Source: a virus. Taken from it: a DNA stretch of 24,665 nucleotides. Every line of letters begins with the position of its first letter. The first letter of the stretch is position 1. The translations under genes were made by a program, and so were the position numbers. Where the stretch lies: positions 1 through 24,665 of the IMG/VR virus record IMGVR_UViG_3300024518_006803; one strand, 5' to 3'. The notes beneath the pieces were generated by a model. That model did not search any database, was not told the origin of the DNA, and saw nothing but the letters and a program-made list of their open reading frames with translations. Shown piece by piece: positions 5,938-24,049 of this stretch.

Positions 5938-6399
5938 TCATTGCGATGTCTCCCTCTCACAGTATTCTTTCAGCCTGGCGTGCTGCCACTGCCTTTCGGC
6001 CTCGTAGGCGGCGGCGTCGGCGTCGTAGGCGGCGGCGTCGGCGGAGTAGGCGGCGTCGGCGGCGGCGGCGGCGGAGGAGTAGGTGGCTCTCAATGTCACA
6101 TCGTCGACCAACCCCCTCGCATAGCCTCTTGCGTATTGGACGGCACGTCGGGACCTCTCGTCTACCTTATTTGATCGATCAAGAGCCCGACCCACACAAT
6201 CGCACGTAAAGAGCATGGCCAAGTCTGGCCGCACAACAGCCAGAGCCCAGATCGCATCATTGAGATTCGCGATTTTTGCGATGTAGACCCACGACCCCTT
6301 CCTAGCCTTGCGTCCCAGTTGAGCCTCGATACGATCGATCCCATCAGGGCAAGCTTCAGCTTCGACGGCCCTGCAGTAGCTAATCTTCAATCCTGTCAT
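5938..6399 (-). CDS. Imm5-like (putative immunity protein) alanine-repeat protein
   Basis: 153 residues. The centre (LFTCDCVGRALDRSNKVDERS then RRAVQYARGYARGLV) followed by a long Ala-rich helix matches the pattern of phage and bacterial proteins annotated as putative immunity protein / Imm5-like, in which a W.LA...P.....F..DCA.R.L....D.R...A...AR.YA.G segment precedes (A)n(AAxAA) helices. The role in phages is unknown. The tail, about residues 105-140, is encoded by GCC-rich tandem repeats (Ala, Asp, Tyr and Glu). ATG 6399 is preceded by GGGGAGAATCC. The upstream eight-codon ORF ends 12 bases before it and may feed ribosomes into it. Confidence 0.65.
   Translation of the reverse strand: MTGLKISYCRAVEAEACPDGIDRIEAQLGRKARKGSWVYIAKIANLNDAIWALAVVRPDLAMLFTCDCVGRALDRSNKVDERSRRAVQYARGYARGLVDDVTLRATYSSAAAAADAAYSADAAAYDADAAAYEAERQWQHARLKEYCERETSQ
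6002..6043 (+). repeat. 21-bp perfect tandem duplication in the Ala-rich gene
   Basis: The 21-base unit at 6002-6022 is repeated exactly at 6023-6043, in a wider GCC/GGC-rich stretch to about 6080. On the - strand it codes a seven-residue Ala/Asp/Tyr unit within the Imm5-like protein. A unit length divisible by three means gain or loss of copies keeps the frame. The + strand copy also reads as poly-Arg or poly-Gly in other frames, which I regard as shadows. Confidence 0.85.
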
Positions 6400-12891: not shown

Positions 12892-13184
12892 TTCTTCCCC
12901 TTCCCTGACCGAGTTCCGGATCGAGTCCTCGACTCCGACCGAGACCAAAACCACGACCCCGACCGATATCGAGACCGAGACCAGGATTGAGCCCCAGACC
13001 GAGACCGAGACCCTGGATGAGACCGAGACCAAGCCCAGCCCCCAGATCGGGACCAAGACCAAGATCGGGGCCATAATCCCTTCCGTGACCGCGACCCACC
13101 CCGAAACCGATACAGAGACCGAGATCTAGACCGAGCTCGAGTCCCGGACCGATACTTTCCCACTCTCAGTATCGCAGCGTTCAT
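12888..13184 (-). CDS. Arg/Ser-repeat protein, array member 10
   Basis: 98 residues; the member next to the SNF2 helicase gene, whose ATG lies in its TGA. It begins MNAAILRVGKYRSGTRARSR and, apart from a Gly/Lys-containing stretch near residues 28-36 (FRGGSRSRKG), is Ser-Arg with Trp. Its last 45 residues (from about SHPGSRSRSGAQSW to SGKGKK) are almost identical to those of member 9, while its N-terminus is different, so the two share only the back half. Highly basic. It overlaps member 9 by ATGA. Confidence 0.6.
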   Translation of the reverse strand: MNAAILRVGKYRSGTRARSRSRSLYRFRGGSRSRKGLWPRSWSWSRSGGWAWSRSHPGSRSRSGAQSWSRSRYRSGSWFWSRSESRTRSGTRSGKGKK

Positions 13185-13444
13185 TTCTTCCCCTTCCCTG
13201 ACCGAGTTCCGGATCGAGTCCTCGACCCCGACCGAGACCAAAACCACGACCCCGACCGATATCGAGACCGAGACCAGGATTGAGCCCCAGACCGAGACCA
13301 AGACCCTGGATGAGACCGAGACCAAGAACGAGTCCAAAATTGAGCCCCGGATCGGGTCCGAGACAAAGATCTAGTCCTAGCTCCGGTTCTGGTCCGAGAC
13401 AGGCCCCTCTGCTCCCGTGCCCCTCTCAGTGTCGCGGGTATCAT
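13181..13444 (-). CDS. Arg/Ser-repeat protein, array member 9
   Basis: 87 residues, of which 19 are Arg, 6 Trp and only one is acidic. It begins MIPATLRGAREQRGLSRTRT, an N-terminus shared almost exactly with member 8, and ends with the SGKGKK tail shared with member 10. The SD block AGGGAAGGGGACGAA precedes ATG 13444, which overlaps the stop of member 8. The alternating Ser-Arg/Ser-Trp composition suggests a disordered nucleic-acid-binding or protamine-like peptide. This is inferred from composition only. Confidence 0.6.
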   Translation of the reverse strand: MIPATLRGAREQRGLSRTRTGARTRSLSRTRSGAQFWTRSWSRSHPGSWSRSGAQSWSRSRYRSGSWFWSRSGSRTRSGTRSGKGKK

Positions 13445-13698
13445 TTCGTCCCCTTCCCTGACCGATATACAGACCGATCCCGCGACCGAGTCCGAGACCG
13501 AGACAAAGACAGGGTCCTCGACCAAGTCCGAGCCCTCGACCAAGATCGAGATAAAGACAGGGTCCTCGACCACTTCCTATACCTCGACCAAGATCGAGTC
13601 CCGGATCGGGTCCGAGACAAAGATCTAGTCCTAGCTCCGGTTCTGGTCCGAGACAGGCCCCTCTGCTCCCGTACCACTCTCAGTGTCGCAGCGTTCAT
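13441..13698 (-). CDS. Arg/Ser-repeat protein, array member 8
   Basis: 85 residues beginning MNAATLRVVREQRGLSRTRT; the next 20 residues match member 9. The second half (WSRARTWSRTLSLSRSRTRS) matches member 7 instead. It therefore looks like a hybrid of its two neighbours. It ends SGKGTK, coded by the SD of the next gene, and both its start and stop are ATGA overlaps. SD AGGGAAGGGGGCGAA. Confidence 0.6.
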   Translation of the reverse strand: MNAATLRVVREQRGLSRTRTGARTRSLSRTRSGTRSWSRYRKWSRTLSLSRSWSRARTWSRTLSLSRSRTRSRDRSVYRSGKGTK

Positions 13699-13913
13699 TT
13701 CGCCCCCTTCCCTGACCAACACCGAGACCGATCCCGCGACCGAGTCCGAGACCGAGACAAAGACAGGGTCCGAGACCAAGTCCGAGCCCTCGACCAAGTC
13801 CGAGATAAAGACAAAGACCAAGTCCTCGACCACTTCCTATACCTCGACCAAGATCGAGTCCGAGTCCGAGATCCAGGTCGAGATAGCCCACCTATCATCG
13901 TCGCAGCTACCAT
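13695..13913 (-). CDS. Arg/Ser-repeat protein, array member 7
   Basis: 72 residues starting MVAATMIGGLSRPGSR, the same 16 residues (apart from position 16 onward) as member 5. The SD is GGGGAGGGGGGTGAG, unlike the GGGAAGGGG type of most members. It overlaps member 6 by 7 bases rather than by ATGA. The repeat part carries Trp and Leu (TWSLSLSRTWSRARTW), and the C-terminus SGKGAK is shared in form with members 2, 3 and 8. Confidence 0.6.
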   Translation of the reverse strand: MVAATMIGGLSRPGSRTRTRSWSRYRKWSRTWSLSLSRTWSRARTWSRTLSLSRSRTRSRDRSRCWSGKGAK

Positions 13914-14230
13914 CTCACCCCCCTCCCCGGCCGAGTTCCGGACCGAGTCTGGTACTGAGACCGAGACTTACAACGAGAACTAGATCTGCACCGAATCACA
14001 ACTTTCGACCAACACCAAGACCGATATCGAGACCAAGATTGAGCCCCTGACCGAGACCACGACTTCGACCGATATCGAGACCAAGAGTGAGCCCCTGACC
14101 GAGACCAAGATTGAGAGCTGAATCGCGGCCAAGGCTCAATCATAGATCTCGACCGCGACCGAGACCATGCTCCGGTCCTGGTCCGCGACAGGCCACTGCC
14201 TCTCCCTGCCCCCATCGTCGTAGCGTTCAT
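13907..14230 (-). CDS. Arg/Ser-repeat protein, array member 6
   Basis: The longest member, 107 residues. It begins MNATTMGAGRGSGLSRTRTG and contains MIEPWPRFSS, then SWSRSGAHSWSRYRSK and a related repeat SWSRSGAQSWSRYRSW, then WCWSKVVIR. The front and the WCWSKVVIR...SQYQTR back are shared with member 4; the middle has an extra duplicated block absent there. It ends RGVRW rather than SGKGxK because its end overlaps a different type of SD. Preceded by the AGGGAAGGGGAAGAA block. Confidence 0.6.
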   Translation of the reverse strand: MNATTMGAGRGSGLSRTRTGAWSRSRSRSMIEPWPRFSSQSWSRSGAHSWSRYRSKSWSRSGAQSWSRYRSWCWSKVVIRCRSSSRCKSRSQYQTRSGTRPGRGVRW

Positions 14231-14406
14231 TTCTTCCCCTTCCCTGACCAAGTCCTATACCGATCCCCTGACACAGATCTGGACCAAGACCCACCCCTAG
14301 ACCGAGACAAGGTCCAAGTCCAAGCCCAAGATCTAGTCCGGGCCCAAGATCTAGTCGGCCGAGATCCAGGTCGAGATAGCCCACCTATCATCGTCGCAGC
14401 TACCAT
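14227..14406 (-). CDS. Arg/Ser-repeat protein, array member 5
   Basis: 59 residues starting at ATG 14406, one base after the stop of member 4 and directly after AGGAGGGGGTGAG, the strongest SD in the array. It begins MVAATMIGGLSRPGSR like member 7 and continues with Trp-rich repeats (WARTRSWAWTWTLSR). It ends SGKGKK with its TGA overlapping the ATG of member 6. Members 4-5 and 6-7 form two copies of the same two-gene unit. Confidence 0.6.
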   Translation of the reverse strand: MVAATMIGGLSRPGSRPTRSWARTRSWAWTWTLSRSRGGSWSRSVSGDRYRTWSGKGKK

Positions 14407-14407
14407 C

Positions 14408-14668
14408 TCACCCCCTCCTGGATCGGGTCCGAGTCTGGTACTGAGACCGAGACTTACAACGAGTCCCAGATCGAGACCGAATCACAACTTTCGACCAACA
14501 CCAAGACCGACACCAAGACCGACACCGAGGCCCGAGCCTAATCCAAGACCGAGAGCTGAATCGCGGCCAGGGCTCAAGCATAGATCTCGACCGCGACCGA
14601 GACCATGCTCCGGTCCTGGTCCGCGACAGGCCACTGCCTCTCCCTGCCCCCATCGTCGCGGGTATCAT
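14408..14668 (-). CDS. Arg/Ser-repeat protein, array member 4
   Basis: 86 residues beginning MIPATMGAGRGSGLSRTRTG, then WSRSRSRSMLEPWPRFSSRS; a close relative of member 6 but without its duplicated central block. It contains three Trp-Cys or Arg-Cys pairs (RCRSWCRSWCWS) and ends TRTRSRRG. The start overlaps the stop of member 3 (ATGA), with SD AGGGAAGGGGACGAA. Confidence 0.6.
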   Translation of the reverse strand: MIPATMGAGRGSGLSRTRTGAWSRSRSRSMLEPWPRFSSRSWIRLGPRCRSWCRSWCWSKVVIRSRSGTRCKSRSQYQTRTRSRRG

Positions 14669-14907
14669 TTCGTCCCCTTCCCTGACCGATCCCGCGACCG
14701 AGTCCTCGACCAAGTCCGAGACTCAGACCTAGACCAAGTCCTAGAACAAGCCCCAGACCGAGACCGAGACCAAGACTTATTCCAAGTCCCAAACCTAGTC
14801 CGAGACAAAGACCGAGACGAAGTACAAGTCCAGGCCCAATATCTAGTCATCGAATGAGATCCAGCCTCAGGCCAGTACTGTCTTGACCCCAGTGTCGCAG
14901 CTATCAT
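14665..14907 (-). CDS. Arg/Ser-repeat protein, array member 3
   Basis: 80 residues with the most divergent N-terminus, MIAATLGSRQYWPEAGSHSM, followed by TRYWAWTCTSS before the repeats become regular. It ends RDRSGKGTK and overlaps members 2 and 4 by ATGA. SD GGAAGGGGGCAAA. The unique first 35 residues may mark an older or differently constrained copy. Confidence 0.55.
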   Translation of the reverse strand: MIAATLGSRQYWPEAGSHSMTRYWAWTCTSSRSLSRTRFGTWNKSWSRSRSGACSRTWSRSESRTWSRTRSRDRSGKGTK

Positions 14908-15062
14908 TTTGCCCCCTTCCGAGATCGAGTCCGAGACATTGCCCTAGACCTCGACCGAGACCAAAACCACGACCCCGACCACCGATATCGAGACCGAGTC
15001 CCAGATCGAGACCGAGACCAAGCTTGGGCCCCAGACCGATACCTTTCCGCTCCGGCTATCAT
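14904..15062 (-). CDS. Arg/Ser-repeat protein, array member 2
   Basis: The shortest member, 52 residues: MIAGAERYRSGAQAWSRSRS, then TRSRYRWSGSWFWSRSRS and a final RKGAK. The RYRSG stretch after the start recalls member 10, and SGSWFWSRS recurs in members 9 and 10. SD GGGAAGGGCAGAA; ATGA overlaps at both ends. The frame stays open upstream but reads Val/Ser repeats without an SD, so the ATG at 15062 is chosen. Confidence 0.55.
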   Translation of the reverse strand: MIAGAERYRSGAQAWSRSRSGTRSRYRWSGSWFWSRSRSRAMSRTRSRKGAK

Positions 15063-15310
15063 TTCTGCCCTTCCCGAGACCGAGCCCTCGACCACGTCCG
15101 AGACTTCGACCACGTCCGAGACTTCGACCGAGACCGAGCCAAAAAATTCGACCGAGCCCAACACCGAGAACGAGACCGAGACCGAGACCGAGCAAAAAAA
15201 TTCGACCTCGACCGAGACCATCCCCCATATAGGGACCAACGCCTAGCTCTGGTCCTGGTCCGCGACAGGCCACTCTGCTCCCGTTCCACTCTCATTGTGG
15301 TAGCTATCAT
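15059..15310 (-). CDS. Arg/Ser-repeat protein, array member 1 (first)
   Basis: 83 residues; the first member in transcription order. ATG 15310 overlaps the stop of the DUF6948-like gene (ATGA) and lacks a strong SD, so it probably depends on translation of that gene. It begins MIATTMRVEREQSGLSRTRT, similar to members 8 and 9, then contains an internal repeat with RSNFFARSRS and RSNFLARSRS. It ends REGQK. Confidence 0.6.
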   Translation of the reverse strand: MIATTMRVEREQSGLSRTRTRARRWSLYGGWSRSRSNFFARSRSRSRSRCWARSNFLARSRSKSRTWSKSRTWSRARSREGQK

Positions 15311-20976: not shown

Positions 20977-20979
20977 GGT

Positions 20980-21015
20980 CTTTCCTTCCTCTGCTAGAAA
21001 TAATCTGGATGGTTT
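20980..21015 (-). repeat. gene-end/RBS direct repeat, copy 1
   Basis: 36 bases matching 33 of 36 positions with 21256-21291. On the coding strand it covers the codons for PDYF and a stop, then an SD (AGAGGAAGGAAAG) for the gene starting at 20976. Both copies carry the last codons of one gene plus the ribosome binding site of the next. Confidence 0.8.
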
Positions 21016-21248
21016 CTCAAGTATGCCAGAATTCCCTCTGCGAGCTTTTCCTCCAAGCCCCCCCAATGCCCAGGAATGCTAGGAGCCACGTCTATGGAGC
21101 TTAAATCCTTGATGGCTCCATCTTCGTCTTGGTTAAAAGTAAAATCAAACACAAACGACATAAAGAACTCTTGGTCTTGTTCATCAAACCGAACAAGGTT
21201 AAGTACCCCTTTGTGCTCGTTGATTTCTTGGAATTCGAGGTACATCAT
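20994..21248 (-). CDS. hypothetical protein ending in the NxPDYF tail
   Basis: 84 residues from the first ATG of ATGATG at 21248, with AGGGAGGAAAGAG upstream. The sequence MMYLEFQEINEHKGVLNLVR is beta-strand-like, then FMSFVFDFTFNQDEDG and a helical end (GLEEKLAEGILAYLRNHPDYF). It has acidic character and no metal-binding residues. The C-terminal six residues NHPDYF nearly match the NRPDYF of the next upstream gene because both are coded in a duplicated DNA segment. Function unknown. Confidence 0.7.
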   Translation of the reverse strand: MMYLEFQEINEHKGVLNLVRFDEQDQEFFMSFVFDFTFNQDEDGAIKDLSSIDVAPSIPGHWGGLEEKLAEGILAYLRNHPDYF

Positions 21249-21255
21249 CTCTTCT

Positions 21256-21291
21256 CTTTCCTCCCTCTGCTAAAAATAATCTGGACGGTTT
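21256..21291 (-). repeat. gene-end/RBS direct repeat, copy 2
   Basis: Second copy of the 36-base element at 20980-21015, with three substitutions. It encodes the PDYF end of the preceding zinc protein and supplies the AGAGGGAGGAAAG SD for the gene starting at 21248. Confidence 0.8.
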
Positions 21292-21707
21292 CCTTCCTGG
21301 GTTCTCCCCCGCCAACAAGGACGGCAAACATAGAAGTAGATAGGATGATCTTCCTTCGTCCAAGGTACTCTCCAGACTATCTCCCCATCTGGTAACCACC
21401 TATTACAACATCTACATACTGACCCCCTGGTGTGTGCCCATCGAGCTAACTCCCATCGGGGTGGGGATTTCTGCCTCAAACTCGGAAGAGGAGGTCTAGG
21501 AGTCCACCGGGGCTTGCACCCAGGCTTTGGTCTAAGCTTCATCTGTTTCAGGCGAGACAGACCATAGGGCGGGGGAGGTGCCTCTCTGCGTTCCCTATTG
21601 ATGCGCTTCCTTTCTTCTACCTTCCTTTCTTCTTCCTCCCGTATCCTTTTAAGAAGCTCTTGTATATAAGGTCTTTCTCTCAATTCTTTCTCTGCTTGGT
21701 CCATCAT
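21270..21707 (-). CDS. hypothetical protein with coiled-coil N-terminus and zinc knuckle
   Basis: 145 residues from the double ATG at 21707, preceded by GGAAAGGTAG. Residues 1-40 are a highly charged coiled coil (RIREEEERKVEERKRINRER), followed by a Pro/Arg-rich basic linker (PPPPYGLSRLK and PRWTPRPPLP) and a C-terminal domain with CRCCNRW and CRPCWRG, a CxxC...CxxC zinc site around residues 98-130, then NRPDYF. The mixture suggests a nucleic-acid- or protein-binding adaptor. I do not recognise the family. Confidence 0.65.
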   Translation of the reverse strand: MMDQAEKELRERPYIQELLKRIREEEERKVEERKRINRERREAPPPPYGLSRLKQMKLRPKPGCKPRWTPRPPLPSLRQKSPPRWELARWAHTRGSVCRCCNRWLPDGEIVWRVPWTKEDHPIYFYVCRPCWRGRTQEGNRPDYF

Positions 21708-22856: not shown

Positions 22857-22877
22857 TTTGCTTTTTCCGAGTTGCTA

Positions 22878-22897
22878 GCGCCTGGTTTTTCAGGCGC
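22878..22897. repeat. stem-loop cassette copy d
   Basis: Perfect 7-bp stem GCGCCTG / CAGGCGC with loop GTTTTT (+ strand), in the gap between the gene ending at 22925 and the gene starting at 22856, followed by GGTTTTA on the + strand as in the other copies. The sequence beyond CTAG on the - strand side is more diverged than in copies a-c. Confidence 0.85.
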
Positions 22898-23221: not shown

Positions 23222-23240
23222 TTCAATCTCCGGTCTTCTA

Positions 23241-23260
23241 GCGCCTGAAAAACCAGGCGC
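23241..23260. repeat. stem-loop cassette copy a
   Basis: Stem GCGCCTG / CAGGCGC with loop AAAAAC on the + strand. It lies between the gene ending at 23270 and the gene starting at 23221; the - strand continues CTAGAAGACCGGAGATTGAA and then ATG. The loop is the exact reverse complement of the loop in copy d (GTTTTT), while the flanks keep the same orientation. Confidence 0.9.
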
Positions 23261-23566: not shown

Positions 23567-23585
23567 TTCAATCTCCGGTCTTCTA

Positions 23586-23603
23586 GCGCCTGGTTTTAGG
23601 CGC
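23586..23603. repeat. stem-loop cassette copy b
   Basis: Shorter variant: stem GCGCCT / AGGCGC with loop GGTTTT. Two bases are missing relative to copy d. On the - strand it continues CTAGAAGACCGGAGATTGAA and then ATG 23566. Just downstream on the + strand, GGTTTTA includes the complement of the TAA stop of the Csx16-like gene. Confidence 0.85.
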
Positions 23604-23607
23604 GGTT

Positions 23608-24009
23608 TTAGGAAAAAAACAGAGTGTTCACGTCACTCCGTACCGACCCGCACTCGAAACAGTCGAAACCTTGTCTTCGATTCGCCTGGTCTTCAGTACC
23701 GTTATCGGCACCGCAGTATGAACAGATATCGTGTATGTGACGTACGATTTCGTACGTCACGGGTTTGCTGCAGTATCGCTCCACCTGCTCACAGGTGAGT
23801 TCTTTCCCTCGAAGATCCTGAGGGAGATCTAAGGGGACCTCCGTGAATCTCCCGCATTCAGCAGCCAGGTGTAGGGGCAGTACGCCCCACACGTCCCTCC
23901 CCTTGACCTTATCGGCCGTGGCATGCGCCACGACTTCATGTCCGCTTCCGATGTAGCGGGCCAGGAACTCAACTAGTCCATGATGCCTGGTCACTATCAG
24001 GATCTGCAT
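23608..24009 (-). CDS. csx16: Csx16-like (VVA1548 family) protein with C-terminal zinc ribbon
   Basis: 133 residues from ATG 24009, preceded by CCGGAGAAGTAAG. Residues 5-12 (IVTRHHGL), 25-41 (EVVAHATADKVKGRDVW), GVLPLHLAAE at 42-51 and EVPLDLPQDLRGKELT at 57-72 match the Csx16 / Cas_VVA1548 family (TRH.G.VE...., H......V....V.G.LP.HLAA......V.LDLP.ELRG.EL). Csx16 is an accessory protein of type III CRISPR loci, and small proteins of this kind are reported to degrade cyclic oligoadenylate messengers (ring nucleases). In a phage this would switch off host type III defence, an inference here. The last 40 residues add a zinc ribbon (CSYC...CFEC), absent from the minimal family. Flanked by stem-loops b and c. 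Confidence 0.75.
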   Translation of the reverse strand: MQILIVTRHHGLVEFLARYIGSGHEVVAHATADKVKGRDVWGVLPLHLAAECGRFTEVPLDLPQDLRGKELTCEQVERYCSKPVTYEIVRHIHDICSYCGADNGTEDQANRRQGFDCFECGSVRSDVNTLFFS

Positions 24010-24029
24010 CTTACTTCTCCGGTCTTCTA

Positions 24030-24049
24030 GCGCCTGAAAAATCAGGCGC
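24030..24049. repeat. stem-loop cassette copy c
   Basis: Stem GCGCCTG / CAGGCGC with loop AAAAAT, between the DUF6011-like gene and the Csx16-like gene. The - strand continues CTAGAAGACCGGAGAAGTAAG and then ATG, so it differs from copies a and b only after the GGAGA core. The last copy in the window. Confidence 0.85.

Follow-up and report, generated by a model that had tools for sequence, protein, structure and literature searches.

The window, which is the whole stretch of DNA analysed here, is a linear IMG/VR virus record of 24,665 bases and represents a phage fragment. It encodes a tail protein (phrog_1101, E = 6e-32), a family-A DNA polymerase, a helicase, a PD-(D/E)XK exonuclease, a RuvC-like resolvase, a Dam-type methyltransferase, and a GP88 protein, and the presence of the tail protein, polymerase, helicase, and exonuclease on one contig bears out the phage setting proposed in the first-pass annotation. 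Among cultured phages, the polymerase has distant matches only (27% identity at best) and the tail protein has no match. Searching the window against Rfam and for tRNA genes gave no matches. A csx16-type gene, which has a DUF6011 protein gene as a neighbour, lies in a run of small minus-strand genes and carries the following features:

23608 to 24009, minus strand: Csx16-type (PF09652) gene encoding 133 aa with a C-terminal CxxC-x17-CxxC tail (open reading frame; PF09652, E = 5.5e-18; PADLOC Csx16, E = 1.7e-17)
23749 to 23997, minus strand: core domain of the Csx16 type, residues 5-87 (PF09652 match mapped onto the DNA; alpha/beta core predicted with confidence by AlphaFold2)
23983 to 23991, minus strand: T7-R8-H9 motif, a candidate part of the ligand-binding or active site, proposed from conservation
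23638 to 23730, minus strand: putative zinc ribbon, residues 94-124, with C96, C99, C117, and C120 (motif; Pfam Zn_ribbon_10, E = 0.0025, below cut-off; low model confidence)
24017 to 24020, minus strand: GGAG, a Shine-Dalgarno-like sequence of the csx16-type gene, read from the sequence
24027 to 24049, minus strand: hairpin leader of the csx16-type gene, common to three neighbouring genes

The frame opens with an ATG codon, with the GGAG lying 7 nt upstream, and its coordinates are exactly those given in the first-pass annotation. The residues that it had named as hallmarks of Csx16 (TRHHG, GVLPLHLAAE, and LDLP..LRGKEL) are likewise all present, at positions 7-11, at positions 42-51, and, as LDLPQDLRGKEL, at positions 60-71, respectively. 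When back-translated to a DNA pattern, GxLPxxLA has a single match in the window, and 0 of 100 shuffles contain it. The GC-rich hairpin (GCGCCTG..CAGGCGC) stands before four consecutive minus-strand genes (22875-22897, 23238-23260, 23574-23613, and 24027-24049), in four successive intergenic gaps, just upstream of the ribosome-binding region. It is not accompanied by a T-run, and its position suggests a leader tied to gene starts, not a terminator. Other repeats occur elsewhere in the window. About 2.4 kb of degenerate hexamer arrays (GACCGA/GACCAA) fill positions 12900-15300, which separate the helicase gene from the one that follows, and include a 254-bp unit repeated near 13334-13861; these arrays have no homology in the relative loci that were fetched. 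GGC-rich trinucleotide and 21-bp repeats at 5996-6087, inside the minus-strand ORF 5938-6399, encode an Ala/Asp-rich stretch, and a 38-bp direct repeat (20979-21016 and 21255-21292, 92% identical) lies near the ends of two adjacent small genes.

Profile searches place the window protein in the Csx16 family in the Pfam sense, as had been supposed from its residues. The PF09652 (Cas_VVA1548/Csx16) match scores 65.4 bits, where the curated Pfam cut-off is 25 bits, and covers residues 5-87 and profile positions 2-89 of 91. The score with NCBI TIGR02620, the narrower CRISPR-locus Csx16 equivalog family, is 29 bits, which falls under the curated cut-off of 46.35 and therefore keeps the protein out of that family. 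All CRISPR-associated models matched by the window protein in Pfam, NCBIfam, and PADLOC are Csx16 models or Csx16 fusions, and the AcrIII-1/Crn2 family is absent among its matches in Pfam, NCBIfam, PHROGs, and PADLOC. PHROGs yielded nothing beyond a weak similarity to anaerobic ribonucleotide reductase (E = 0.0034), which reaches into the zinc tail and was put down to chance. In a 7-sequence alignment, H9, H29, G42, L44, P45, L48, R67, G68, and L71 are invariant, and all of them are present in the window protein. The pattern used for the last scan of viral contigs partly builds in the conservation of R8 and H9, but both residues are also kept in archaeal-virus, archaeal-plasmid, Deinococcus, and Allochromatium sequences, all of which were found without that pattern; R8 is replaced by Q in two plasmid-type relatives.

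The AlphaFold2 model of the window protein has an alternating beta/alpha core predicted with high confidence (pLDDT about 96) and a low-confidence C-terminal tail (pLDDT about 55). Foldseek searches of the PDB and BFVD with this model gave no significant match. With VIA-align, the best CARF match was cA4-bound Cam1 (Z 4.3, rmsd 2.9, 81 aligned), which tied with unrelated folds, namely NAD kinase and CheY-like proteins. The predicted structure therefore agrees with a CARF-like fold but falls short of demonstrating one. In one published study, a Csx16 model matched a viral Crn2 at Z 4.8 (PMC12409355).

According to the same study (Hoikkala et al. 2025, PMC12409355), one Csx16 cleaves cyclic tetra-adenylate (cA4) specifically, and not cA3 or cA6, and it degraded cA4 fully at a 100-fold substrate excess. 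The earlier statement that proteins of this type break down cyclic oligoadenylates accordingly has a biochemical footing in one Csx16, and it narrows to cA4. Anti-CRISPR action of viral ring nucleases is also published. The protein AcrIII-1 (viral Crn2) is described in that study and its references as a small viral protein that destroys cA4 and blocks type III immunity, the mode proposed here for the window protein, although the two belong to different sequence families. Csx15 and Csx20 are likewise small members of the CARF superfamily that act on cA4 (PMC12409355, PMC13148439), in families separate from Csx16.

Judged from its profile match, its conserved residues, the phage setting in which no type III effector gene was detected, and its many relatives on other phage contigs, the product of 23608-24009 is likely to be a phage-encoded ring nuclease belonging to the Csx16 (PF09652) superfamily, and its role is most likely that of a viral cA4 ring nuclease and candidate anti-CRISPR. 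Since the family is known for destroying the molecule with which type III CRISPR immunity raises the alarm, the window protein probably helps this virus of bacteria or archaea to escape. We propose that this could occur through the following steps: (i) a type III CRISPR system of the host would detect phage transcripts, and its Cas10 would make cA4; (ii) the window protein, probably dimeric, would use its CARF-like core to bind cA4; (iii) it would cut cA4 to linear products; and (iv) once cA4 was cut, the cA4-activated effectors would stay off and infection would proceed. The C-terminal zinc ribbon would be an accessory module, which most likely stabilises the small enzyme or tethers it to a partner.

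The same core could instead act as a sponge or a very slow nuclease that binds and sequesters cA4 or another immune cyclic nucleotide, in the manner of Csx15 or phage sponge proteins. The related Csx15 is a good cA4 binder and a slow enzyme (PMC13148439), and the catalytic residues of the window protein are putative, both of which favour this explanation. The full degradation of cA4 by the tested Csx16 at large substrate excess speaks against it, and the conserved R8 and H9 fit catalysis and binding equally. We regard sequestration as unlikely and retain cleavage of cA4 as the preferred reading.

To place this candidate ring nuclease among its relatives, viral collections and bacterial genomes were searched. 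Among annotated phages, the window protein matches only the Methanobacterium viruses Drs3 and PhiF3, whose proteins are already annotated as Cas_VVA1548/Csx16. Scanning viral contigs with a single protein as query, whether the Csx16-type protein or the neighbouring DUF6011 protein, gave no matches, and a mixed archaeal and bacterial alignment was too diverse to serve as a query. With small alignments, IMG/VR scans returned 6, then 20, then 75 confirmed loci; the 75 contigs came from one scan, and all scans together gave 80 distinct contigs, a few of them near-duplicates. Every record of the first check (21 of 21, the window included) carries PF09652 above cut-off. Across the first 20 loci, the phage csx16-type genes had no recurrent neighbour. 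Of 111 Deinococcota genomes searched, only 2 had the family, too few for a comparison. Some relatives have unusual arrangements. In Thermaceae, a plasmid-type Csx16 fused to a 671-aa protein lies on pMESIL02 of Allomeiothermus silvanus (L004, 2501-4516), outside annotated cas neighbourhoods, and another is present as a tandem duplicate in Meiothermus luteus (L014, 5992-6780). In one phage record (L074, 2575-3285), the Csx16 has a weakly MarR-like N-terminal domain and a repeat-rich stretch precedes the gene; in another (L047, 2650-3270), an HNH-like frame continues without a stop into the Csx16 domain, as either a fusion or two overlapping starts.

In a maximum-likelihood tree, 72 phage rows fall on one side and four CRISPR-linked Csx16 proteins (two from Allochromatium and one each from Aeromonas and Photobacterium, all gammaproteobacterial) on the other, separated by a branch of 0.84 changes per column with support of 100/98; the tree rests on about 100 alignment columns and on phage sequences found with patterns from their own branch. 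Three Deinococcota plasmid-type relatives (pDEIPR02, pMESIL02, and a Meiothermus luteus contig) stand on the phage side, and the archaeal-virus forms on the CRISPR side. The best tree has three plasmid-type rows among the phage rows, although a single clade of the 72 phage rows is not rejected (p-AU 0.23). The window protein is, on sequence grounds, a member of a divergent phage/plasmid branch. The curated NCBI model reflects the same division: the four CRISPR-linked proteins score 87-114 bits with TIGR02620, whereas the phage-branch IMG/VR proteins tested score 17-36, all below 46.35, and would consequently go unnamed with the standard Csx16 model.

Compared with the cA4-specific Csx16 of CRISPR operons (PF09652, TIGR02620), the window protein has the same domain from end to end, with TRH/SRH, H29, GxLP, and RG-EL kept, but it is encoded outside a cas operon, lies on the phage/plasmid side of the supported branch, scores below the TIGR02620 cut-off, and has an extra zinc-ribbon-like tail. 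The Drs3 and PhiF3 proteins are also of the PF09652 type and virus-encoded without annotated cas neighbours, and they are apparently the two phage Csx16 cases of the published survey. They differ from the window protein in belonging to archaeal viruses, in being only 32 and 29% identical to it, respectively, in having no zinc tail, and in falling on the CRISPR-operon side of the tree, on long branches.

A long, supported branch of this kind, the low TIGR02620 scores of its phage rows, and the fusion of some members to MarR-like or other domains would all suit a phage branch that has diverged from cA4, with the window protein acting on a different nucleotide signal or regulating the metabolism of the phage itself. 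Because the conserved positions are common to both branches and the known functions of the family all lie in type III signalling, we give this explanation rather little weight. An even less probable explanation, which we hold to be very unlikely, is that the protein belongs to a CRISPR-Cas module of the phage and resets that system instead of blocking the one of the host. Type III loci are where the family was defined, and members do occur inside Cmr or other cas operons, on Aeromonas and Allochromatium plasmids. However, no type III RAMP protein was found by profile search in the window, itself a fragment, or in 70 other phage Csx16 records, many of them fragments (0 of 71 in total), and there is no CRISPR array among the repeats listed for the window, in line with the first-pass observation that cas genes and repeat arrays are missing there. 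The same RAMP profile matched in 4 of 14 control genomes. A large-terminase match (E of 0.001 or better) was present in 33 of the 71 records, and, together with the 75 relative contigs and the lack of RAMP proteins, this suggests that the gene is kept by phages outside CRISPR loci. Finally, the resemblance of GVLPLHLAAE to ankyrin repeats (phmmer matches to designed ankyrin proteins in the PDB over residues 28-60; Pfam Ank_5, E = 0.023) was rejected, and an ankyrin or chance likeness around PLHLAA can be set aside as having a negligible probability, since the PDB scores are inflated by adding up numerous weak repeat copies, not one of which reaches significance by itself in the displayed alignments, while PF09652 spans the whole domain at 65 bits and the model core is alternating alpha/beta rather than a helical repeat.

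The C-terminal tail of the window protein contains C96-x2-C99-x17-C117-x2-C120, and two CxxC motifs in its 45 aa would arise by chance with a probability of ~2e-4 at the Cys frequency of the phage itself. Of the C-terminal zinc ribbon proposed in the first-pass annotation, the two CxxC motifs stand; the ribbon fold is a sequence-based prediction, in a tail modelled at low confidence. Similar modules occur in other phage Csx16 proteins, namely, a C-terminal three-CxxC tail (L035/L015), N-terminal two-CxxC modules (L039, L090 with its near-copy L033, and L060), and an N-terminal CxxC/His module (L080/L010); the N-terminal starts of these fused relatives were placed from open frames, start codons, and, where present, Shine-Dalgarno-like sequences. 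Terminase matches were obtained on two of these zinc-fused records (L039, E = 2.8e-54; L060, E = 1.4e-13). On the first tree, the zinc-module label needs 6 changes, and the starred branches force at least 5; one of the forced changes drops out because L033 has the same ribbon as L090, and after this correction the label is still found in well separated places of the tree. A close relative of L060 (L066) is without the module, so the gain or loss there is recent. Several phage Csx16 sequences that are not related to one another thus have fused modules of a predicted zinc-binding type, at the N-terminus in some and at the C-terminus in others. No paper joining a CRISPR ring nuclease to a fused zinc ribbon was found in a literature search whose scope excluded preprints and most subscription papers, and the two papers with both ring-nuclease and zinc-ribbon wording concern, by title and abstract, type IV restriction systems.

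Since Csx16 had already been reported in two phage genomes, its occurrence in a phage is of a kind known before. The new findings are how broad the divergent phage branch is, which goes undetected by the curated NCBI model, and how repeatedly its members have zinc-type fusions. The published survey regarded AcrIII-1 as the most frequent viral ring nuclease by a wide margin and recorded Csx16 in only two cultured phage genomes (2 of 28,114; Hoikkala et al. 2025, PMC12409355), as against 75 IMG/VR contigs from a single pattern scan. As a speculative extension that we consider possible but doubtful, the large and mostly unannotated phage Csx16 branch may be a main type III anti-CRISPR class in uncultivated phages, with repeatedly acquired zinc modules adding something that the CRISPR-borne enzymes lack, for example recruitment of the ring nuclease to the Cas10 complex or a different cellular partner, such that cA4 would be degraded at its site of synthesis. 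If the phage branch is active, type III counter-defence would be commoner and more varied than has been recognised, and the zinc-fused forms would offer a way to test whether viral ring nucleases are directed to a target or act simply by diffusion.
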